In this document: piece after piece, positions 1,777-17,727 of the stretch | Position numbering within the stretch: position 1 is the first letter of the stretch | How the letters are laid out: each line of letters starts with the position of its first letter | DNA from: a bacterium | GTDB taxonomy: Bacteria; SZUA-182; DTGQ01 | DNA length: 17,727 nt | Assembly (NCBI GenBank): GCA_023512255.1 | Contig: JAILZY010000072.1 | Coordinates: 1 to 17,727 of the forward strand | Reading direction: 5' to 3' | The notes under the pieces: model-generated | What the model saw: the letters and a program-made list of their open reading frames with translations, nothing else | The model's database searches: none | Told to the model about the DNA's origin: nothing | Made by a program: the position numbers and the translations under genes

Positions 1777-1853
1777 TCAGTTAACTTTCACAAAATGTGT
1801 GAGTTAACATTCTGGAATATAAAGCTTTTTCAGGTGTTCGCTCTGAATTCAGG
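1777..1853 (+). repeat. 77-bp dispersed repeat, copy 1
   Basis: This copy matches the reverse complement of 17652-17727 at all but two positions: one extra T in a T-run and one A/G change in GAATTC versus GGATTC. It opens with a hairpin (1780-1808) whose outer stem is GTTAACT/AGTTAAC. After a G-T wobble and one mismatch comes an inner stem CACA/TGTG with a 3-nt loop. The distal part contains TTCAG...CTGAA, which could form a second small stem. It lies about 120 bp downstream of murJ. No open frame is present, so it looks like an intergenic repeat family of unknown function. Confidence 0.85.
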
Positions 1854-16436: not shown

Positions 16437-17384
16437 ATGCAGAAAGTCAAAAAATTACGGCTTGAATGCTGCATTTGCGCAAATACTGACCCCGGTGGGT
16501 ACGAATTGCTGTATCCCCTGCCAAGGGGAGAGGTGATTCGATGCCGCCGCTGCGGCCTAATCTACGTTAATGATCTTCCCTCTGGAGATGATGATTGTCA
16601 GAATGAGGAATACTTCACCTACTGGGGGATCGATGTTTACCAGAAATCAGAAGGGCTTTTCCTTGAGGAGTTTCACCAGGTAATTAAAGAAATTAACAGA
16701 TTTAATCCCTTAACCGGCAAGCTGTTGGATATTGGTTGCGGCCCGGGATACTTTTTAACTGTAGCCAGGCAGTATGGATGGGAGGCCGTAGGTCTTGATG
16801 TCAGTAAGGTTATTGTGAATCTGGCCAAGAAACGAGGGGAAAATGTTTTTTGCTGTAAGGTGGAAAAATTCGCTCTAAAGTATCCAGCAGAGAAATTTGA
16901 CTGCATCACTATGTTCAATATCCTTGAGCATCTTGTCTATCCTGCACAGGCATTATCCGCTGTCCGAAGGATATTGAAAAGTGATGGAATTATAGTTATT
17001 GAAACCCCTACTGAAGATAGCCTTGTTCGCCGTACCGCCCACCTTCTTTACCGGCTGAGTAATGGAAAATGCGACCATCTGACCAGGCAATTGTACCATT
17101 GTGGAGGTCACCACTTTGGCTTTTCACCAAAAACAATAAGCTTACTTTTGGTCAGTCAAGGCTTTATGCCCGTGAGCATTCAACCTGCTCTCTCATCGCC
17201 GAAGATCGCCCTGAAAAAGCGCATAGTGGAATTAGCCAGAGCAAGGGGGCTGGCTGAAAAGCTACTTCAGCTTATCTTGGCAGGCGCAATTTCCTTGGCC
17301 TGGGGTGGCTCTAGGCTTTTCGGCCCCCAGCACATGGCCAACCGAATGAGGATCCTGGCCCGGCCTAACATGCCTAGTAAATAG
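16437..17384 (+). CDS. Class I SAM-dependent methyltransferase with N-terminal zinc-ribbon-like cysteines
   Basis: The protein has 315 residues. Residues 11-39 carry a CxxC...CxxC arrangement (C11, C14, C36, C39), probably a small zinc-binding element. The Rossmann methyltransferase domain follows: SAM motif I KLLDIGCGPGYFL (95-107), an acidic residue at Asp121 after the second strand (EAVGLD), and FDCITMFNILEHL (154-166), typical of the Methyltransf_23/UbiG-like group. RILKSDGIIVIETPTEDS then leads to GGHHFGFSPKTISLLLVSQGF. Such CxxC-headed enzymes are often found in sugar or polysaccharide clusters, so glycan or lipid-carrier methylation is possible, but the substrate is unknown. Hydrophobicity near residues 270-295 hints at membrane association. 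ATG 16437 is used, with AGG and GAGAG upstream. It is divergent from the glycosyltransferase. The stop codon lies in a 22-bp tandem duplication. Confidence 0.88.
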   Translation: MQKVKKLRLECCICANTDPGGYELLYPLPRGEVIRCRRCGLIYVNDLPSGDDDCQNEEYFTYWGIDVYQKSEGLFLEEFHQVIKEINRFNPLTGKLLDIGCGPGYFLTVARQYGWEAVGLDVSKVIVNLAKKRGENVFCCKVEKFALKYPAEKFDCITMFNILEHLVYPAQALSAVRRILKSDGIIVIETPTEDSLVRRTAHLLYRLSNGKCDHLTRQLYHCGGHHFGFSPKTISLLLVSQGFMPVSIQPALSSPKIALKKRIVELARARGLAEKLLQLILAGAISLAWGGSRLFGPQHMANRMRILARPNMPSK

Positions 17385-17405
17385 GCCTAACATGCCTAGT
17401 CAATA
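17362..17405. repeat. 22-bp tandem duplication over the methyltransferase stop
   Basis: Two adjacent 22-bp units share the exact 17-mer GGCCTAACATGCCTAGT (17362-17378, 17384-17400), and their last five bases are AAATA versus CAATA. The TAG stop (17382-17384) falls at the unit boundary, so the second copy repeats the last coding codons outside the gene. Confidence 0.93.
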
Positions 17406-17469: not shown

Positions 17470-17589
17470 ATGGAGGATAAGTGCCCGACCATAAAGATCT
17501 GTAATTTACTCAGGTATCACAAGCGGCTCGCCTGGGCTGGACAAGCGAGGTCTTATCCTCATCAAAAGGTTATAATTTATGATGGCTAG
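17470..17589 (+). CDS. Doubtful 39-residue open frame, possibly a gene remnant
   Basis: An ATG at 17470 opens 39 codons ending in TAG at 17587-17589. GAGG lies about 14 bases upstream, further than ideal. The product has a stretch LLRYHKRLAWAGQARSYPHQ followed by KVIIYDG. The last part faintly recalls the first helix and strand of GT4 glycosyltransferases (…QA..L...GH.V.V), but this is by eye only. It may be a chance frame, a small gene or the stump of a decayed glycosyltransferase. Its stop lies at the boundary of a 21-bp tandem duplication. Confidence 0.15.
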   Translation: MEDKCPTIKICNLLRYHKRLAWAGQARSYPHQKVIIYDG

Positions 17590-17608
17590 GTTATAATTTA
17601 TTATGGAC
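17567..17608. repeat. 21-bp tandem duplication
   Basis: Adjacent 21-bp units (17567-17587, 17588-17608) share AGGTTATAATTTA exactly. They then read TGATGG versus TTATGG and diverge at the end. Confidence 0.85.
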
Positions 17609-17622
17609 GGATGTTTATTCGG

Positions 17623-17651
17623 ATACTTATTTAAATGAATACTTATTTAAA
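17623..17651. repeat. Direct repeat with 16-bp period next to the 77-bp repeat
   Basis: ATACTTATTTAAA occurs at 17623-17635 and again at 17639-17651, ending exactly where the 77-bp repeat begins. Confidence 0.85.
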
Positions 17652-17727
17652 CCTGAATCCAGAGCGAACACCTGAAAAGCTTTATATTCCAGAATGTTAA
17701 CTCACACATTTTGTGAAAGTTAACTGA
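17652..17727 (-). repeat. 77-bp dispersed repeat, copy 2 (inverted)
   Basis: This 76-bp copy is the reverse complement of 1777-1853 apart from one missing T and one substitution. Its hairpin (17696-17724) is fully conserved. Homology with copy 1 ends at 17652 on the inner side. On the outer side the window stops, so the true boundary cannot be seen and the match may be longer. Confidence 0.85.

Follow-up and report, generated by a model that had tools for sequence, protein, structure and literature searches.

A 117-bp repeat with terminal inverted repeats and 5-bp target duplications, almost certainly a bacterial MITE

The window analyzed here is a whole contig of 17,727 bp (G000:C73). It carries mviN at positions 5-1654 and, about 15.8 kb apart and in opposite orientations, two copies of an intergenic repeat. 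This repeat had been predicted from a near-identical inverted match of 77 bp (1777-1853 and 17652-17727). The match is genuine, with 53 identical nt and a further 27 nt at 96% identity, and chance is excluded by the many further copies in the genome. A gene for a 73-aa ribbon-helix-helix (CopG-like) protein at 2530-2751 adjoins smc and is near-identical in the sister genome of the genus (G001); the DNA upstream of this gene is about 81% conserved in another genus of the family. A 22-bp tandem repeat (GGCCTAACATGCCTAGTAAATA) is located at 17362-17405, at the 3' end of a methyltransferase gene. The features that belong to the element are as follows.

1731-1735, + strand: left flank of copy 1, ATAGA; differs from the copy's own right flank and recurs as the right flank of the C167 half copy
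1736-1853, + strand: MITE copy 1, complete, 118 bp (one T inserted), flanking 5-mers not matching
1736-1759, + strand: left terminal inverted repeat of copy 1, TCTTATGCCAGAGGGAATGCTTGA; consensus CCTTATGCCAGAGCGAATGCTTGA
1780-1808, + strand: internal interrupted palindrome of copy 1, GTTAACTTTCACAAAATGTGTGAGTTAAC
1830-1853, - strand: right terminal inverted repeat of copy 1, CCTGAATTCAGAGCGAACACCTGA; consensus CCTGAATCCAGAGCGAACACCTGA
1854-1858, + strand: right flank of copy 1, CTAAT; fits NTNAN, with no exact partner among contig-end copies
17647-17651, - strand: outer flank of copy 2, TTTAA in element orientation; identical to the half-copy flank at the C131 end
17652-17727, - strand: MITE copy 2, covering positions 42-117 of the element; the remainder lies past the contig end

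Alignment of the copies together with their flanks revealed that the 77-bp match, although genuine, is only the larger part of a 117-bp unit, with similarity reaching some 41 bp beyond it on the left. The edges are sharp and common to the copies (CCTTATGCC on the left and ATTCAGG on the right), and the flanking sequences are unrelated. The unit ends in imperfect terminal inverted repeats (TIRs) of 24 bp, whose termini are CCTTATGCCAGAGCGAA and CCTGAATCCAGAGCGAA and whose first bases are CCTTATG and CCTGAAT. Its interior consists of an interrupted 29-nt palindrome and AT-rich spacers. This palindrome (GTTAACT...AGTTAAC) had been taken as the start of the repeat; it is internal, and the real ends are the TIRs. 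The tail with TTCAG...CTGAA is the right-hand TIR. As predicted, the repeat contains no frame, and at 117 bp it is too short to encode a transposase. Copy 2 looks 76 bp long because the contig stops at position 17727.

The window's own genome (3,834,629 bp, 172 contigs, 96.6% complete) was then searched for further copies. The 77-mer gave at least 40 matches, and the 3.83-Mb assembly carries the element at a minimum of 41 sites, comprising 20 complete copies, three internally deleted ones, one that has lost an end and 17 interrupted by the end of a contig. It is clearly not confined to the two copies of the window. The true number of insertions is about 35-41, because many half copies represent the two halves of one insertion. 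The three internally deleted copies are 81-84 bp long and have the same deletion. Variants common to several copies (e.g., GAGGGAA in L001 and L011) point to more than one source copy. Simple ORF calling in 33 contexts showed no gene clearly interrupted by a copy, and the two ORF overlaps that it produced appear spurious; the copies look intergenic.

Several additional repeats were observed during this survey. One region (L076, C134:25000-26000) contains two MITE copies separated by about 140 bp. One of the two is missing 9 bp at its left end, and a 16-bp direct repeat (CTCTAGGCTGCTTCAA) borders it. Another locus (L105, 2165-2192 on the - strand, C107:20641-20692) has a tandem pair of units similar to the left TIR (TTATGCCAGAGCGATTG.TTGAAAA), with neither the remaining element nor a transposase nearby. 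A second short intergenic repeat (approximately CCATAAATnAGTTATAACC), spotted by eye at 17560-17605 of the window and in the flanks of L022, L024 and L093, may recur beside several MITE copies, and a pattern check of its exact form gave only one close match.

Target-site duplications were examined in the 22 copies that have both flanks. Exact 5-mers are present on the two sides of 13 of them, and 96 of 110 flank letters are identical, compared with 66.9 +/- 3.8 after permuting the right flanks (none of 20,000 permutations was as high). T occupies the second flank position in 43 of 44 cases, and A the fourth in 42 of 44. Thus, the target site is NTNAW and the duplication is 5 bp long. A 3-bp TNA duplication was ruled out, as the variable first and fifth bases match across the two sides too often. 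The three deleted copies are flanked by TTAAA/TTAAA, GTAAT/ATAAT and ATGAA/ATGAA, that is, by duplications of their own, and therefore the deleted form probably moved after the deletion had occurred. In that case, the left repeat would need no more than its outer 10 bp, and most of the rest of it would be dispensable.

Bacterial MITEs are shorter than 500 bp, do not code for a transposase, and have TIRs of about 4-30 bp, a target duplication and dispersed, mostly intergenic copies (PMC2229807, PMC10969869). All of these features were found here, in agreement with the prediction of a non-autonomous mobile repeat. The element is almost certainly a MITE, a non-autonomous transposon without genes of its own, which has been amplified in this species. 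It is a known kind of element and a new family.

A reasonable hypothesis is that a transposase encoded elsewhere, or since lost, recognizes the 24-bp imperfect TIRs and moves the element in trans; both this movement and the identity of the enzyme are what we infer. The enzyme would excise or copy the element and insert it at NTNAW sites within AT-rich intergenic DNA, and repair of the staggered cut would create the 5-bp duplication. Copies would afterwards decay neutrally through substitutions and small internal duplications or deletions, and the 81-84-bp form probably moved as well.

The original prediction had also considered a structured RNA or a protein-binding site. The element might be a selected structured RNA or an mRNA-end hairpin (terminator, RNase III or RNase E site) that was spread by host benefit; this would agree with its strong predicted foldback (z -7.5 on one strand and -5.2 on the other) and with the observation that all three arm differences of the inner TIR are G-U pairs in + strand RNA. 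However, terminal repeats alone would produce such a foldback, as any inverted repeat would. The covariance check that had been proposed for the hairpin revealed no compensatory changes: across 20 copies no pair was changed on both sides, and the shuffle control was not exceeded. Stem substitutions preserve pairing in 17 of 40 cases versus 15.9 expected. Right-hand neighbour genes show no orientation bias (15 + and 15 -), none of the eight relatives examined in the phylum carries the element, and no Rfam match was found. With no sign of selection on RNA, we consider a selected RNA very improbable, and the chance-like substitutions, unbiased neighbours and lack of carrier relatives speak against a selected protein-binding site as well.

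Movement of a REP/BIME-like repeat by a RAYT (Y1 transposase) had been suggested too. The element is dispersed, intergenic, palindromic and without a frame, as such a repeat would be. REP elements are hairpins of 20-40 bp, and Y1/RAYT movement is not known to duplicate the target. The anatomy argues against this origin: with its length of 117 bp, its two ends formed by TIRs and its 5-bp target duplications, the element is not a short single-hairpin repeat, and the probability of such an origin is close to nil.

We analyzed the distribution of the MITE in other genomes. No copy was detected in the sister genome, whose TIR-like single sequences are all unpaired. TIR pairs (24-mer with 3 mismatches) were absent from the other eight genomes of the phylum, so that among nine genomes they occur only here. 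A degenerate 24-mer TIR pattern had four matches in about 85,000 species genomes, no more than expected by chance and all unpaired, and no other species has an exact 35-mer of the element. None was found in viral contigs or in plasmid and phage records. The named collections may omit records of the window's own genome. No clean empty site was found in a relative; in the sister genome mviN and smc are located on different contigs, and the intergenic DNA is unalignable.

A MITE would be expected to have the same ends as an autonomous transposon able to move it, but no transposase gene with matching ends was detected in this assembly or in eight relatives. Likewise, TIR pairs at insertion-sequence spacing were not found with a 17-mer (2 mismatches), with the 12-mer tip, or across the phylum with a 24-mer (3 mismatches). 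Absence of the enzyme here proves little, because a fragmented metagenome assembly may lack multi-copy insertion sequences. Several candidates were rejected. Among the DDE_Tnp_1 matches, L082 has other ends (TCTCACTACCGGACA) and L081 has decayed, while L083 belongs to a DDE_5 (IS701-like) element with the ends ATTACAACGAGACATTCA. PF13340 is absent from this genome. An IS1380 partner was likewise unsupported: the genome has no PF13701 transposase, and the single clear relative in the phylum is without these ends.

In the sister genome, the DNA downstream of mviN (L084, reverse strand) contains a short foldback element of another kind (CTACCGGACACTTTT...AAAGTGTCCGGTAG), with an apparent AAACCTA duplication. 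It may be a MITE of the L082 insertion sequence, because its ends resemble TCTCACTACCGGACA.

Copy 1 of the window lacks a matching duplication. It is the only complete copy whose flanks are clearly discordant (left ATAGA, right CTAAT); the apparent discordance of copy L021 is due to a 1-bp deletion. The ATAGA that copy 1 lacks on its right side is found to the right of the half copy at the start of contig C167 (L104), and about 30 bp past that half copy a DUF3467 gene starts. In relatives (the sister genome and another genus of the same family), the gene that comes after mviN is this DUF3467 gene. The discordant flanks and this gene order therefore indicate that copy 1 joins two insertions, either by mis-assembly or by recombination. 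The original order was probably mviN-MITE-C167, and the window appears to link mviN to a different region. Thus, the inverted match of the original prediction stands, but the arrangement of its two copies is doubtful, since the flanks of copy 1 and the gene order of relatives are against the contig join. The suspicion of an assembly artefact may be justified for the junction at copy 1; it does not hold for the element.

Most half copies end 69-76 bp into the element, pointing to an assembly overlap of around 77 bp. In copy 1, an 80-bp run is identical to the consensus; in most other complete copies, which have concordant duplications, the run is 76 bp or less. With such an overlap and an 80-bp run, a false join at copy 1 would be easy, and we think that mis-assembly is the likely explanation. 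It is possible that copy 1 is instead a real recombination junction of two MITE copies (inversion or translocation), present in this genome or in a part of the population: homologous repeats are able to recombine, and the discordant ATAGA and CTAAT flanks and the separation of mviN from its ancestral neighbour DUF3467 would fit. Contig ends lying 69-76 bp into copies argue against such an event, as does the 80-bp run, which suffices for a false join, and we regard it as rather unlikely. A long run alone does not imply a false join, because copy L005 has a 93-bp run and its flanks are still identical at four of five positions. Whichever origin applies to the junction, the 15.8-kb inverted pair should not be used, and the predicted flipping of the segment between the copies would presuppose this doubtful arrangement.

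The target duplications serve as bar codes that pair contig ends and reveal one doubtful junction in the window. Five of six right halves could be paired with a left half whose 5-mer is identical (C73 end with C131; C33 with C161 or C107; C113 with C154; C68 with C2; C167 with copy 1); some of these pairs could be chance matches, given the biased target. The MITE probably accounts for at least 17 breaks of this assembly. The family is well defined, its ends and target site being known exactly, and comes from a lineage in which nine genomes were examined. There is also a small chance that it is the trace of an undescribed insertion-sequence family with the ends CCTTATGCC/CCTGAATCC and a 5-bp NTNAW target, in an almost unsampled bacterial phylum.

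Among known transposons, Tn3 ends begin with GGGG, and those of the element with CCTTATG and CCTGAAT. IS1380-family ends begin with CCT, and their duplications are AT-rich and 4-5 bp long; the element resembles this family in its first bases and duplication length, a likeness that serves as a lead only. TIMEs, which are derived from Tn3, are similar to the element in having mostly 5-bp AT-rich target duplications and no transposase of their own, but they are 262 bp long and have 38-bp Tn3-type ends (PMC4133298). RUP, the repeat unit of pneumococcus, is a 107-bp MITE for which IS630-Spn1 was proposed as the mobiliser (PMC2229807). It is like the element in its similar size, intergenic location, lack of a frame, foldback, TIRs and tens to about a hundred copies; in contrast, RUP targets TA (PMC2229807), whereas the element uses a 5-bp NTNAW target and has unrelated ends, and no partner insertion sequence was found for it. 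Correia/NEMIS of Neisseria and ERIC of enterobacteria differ in having TA ends and other sequences and in the RNA effects reported for them (PMC2229807, PMC10969869). They are nevertheless like the element in being intergenic palindromic MITEs, of about 100-160 bp, whose transcripts form stable hairpins, as predicted for the element, and the Correia TIR, at 24 bp, has the same length as that of the element (PMC2229807, PMC10969869).
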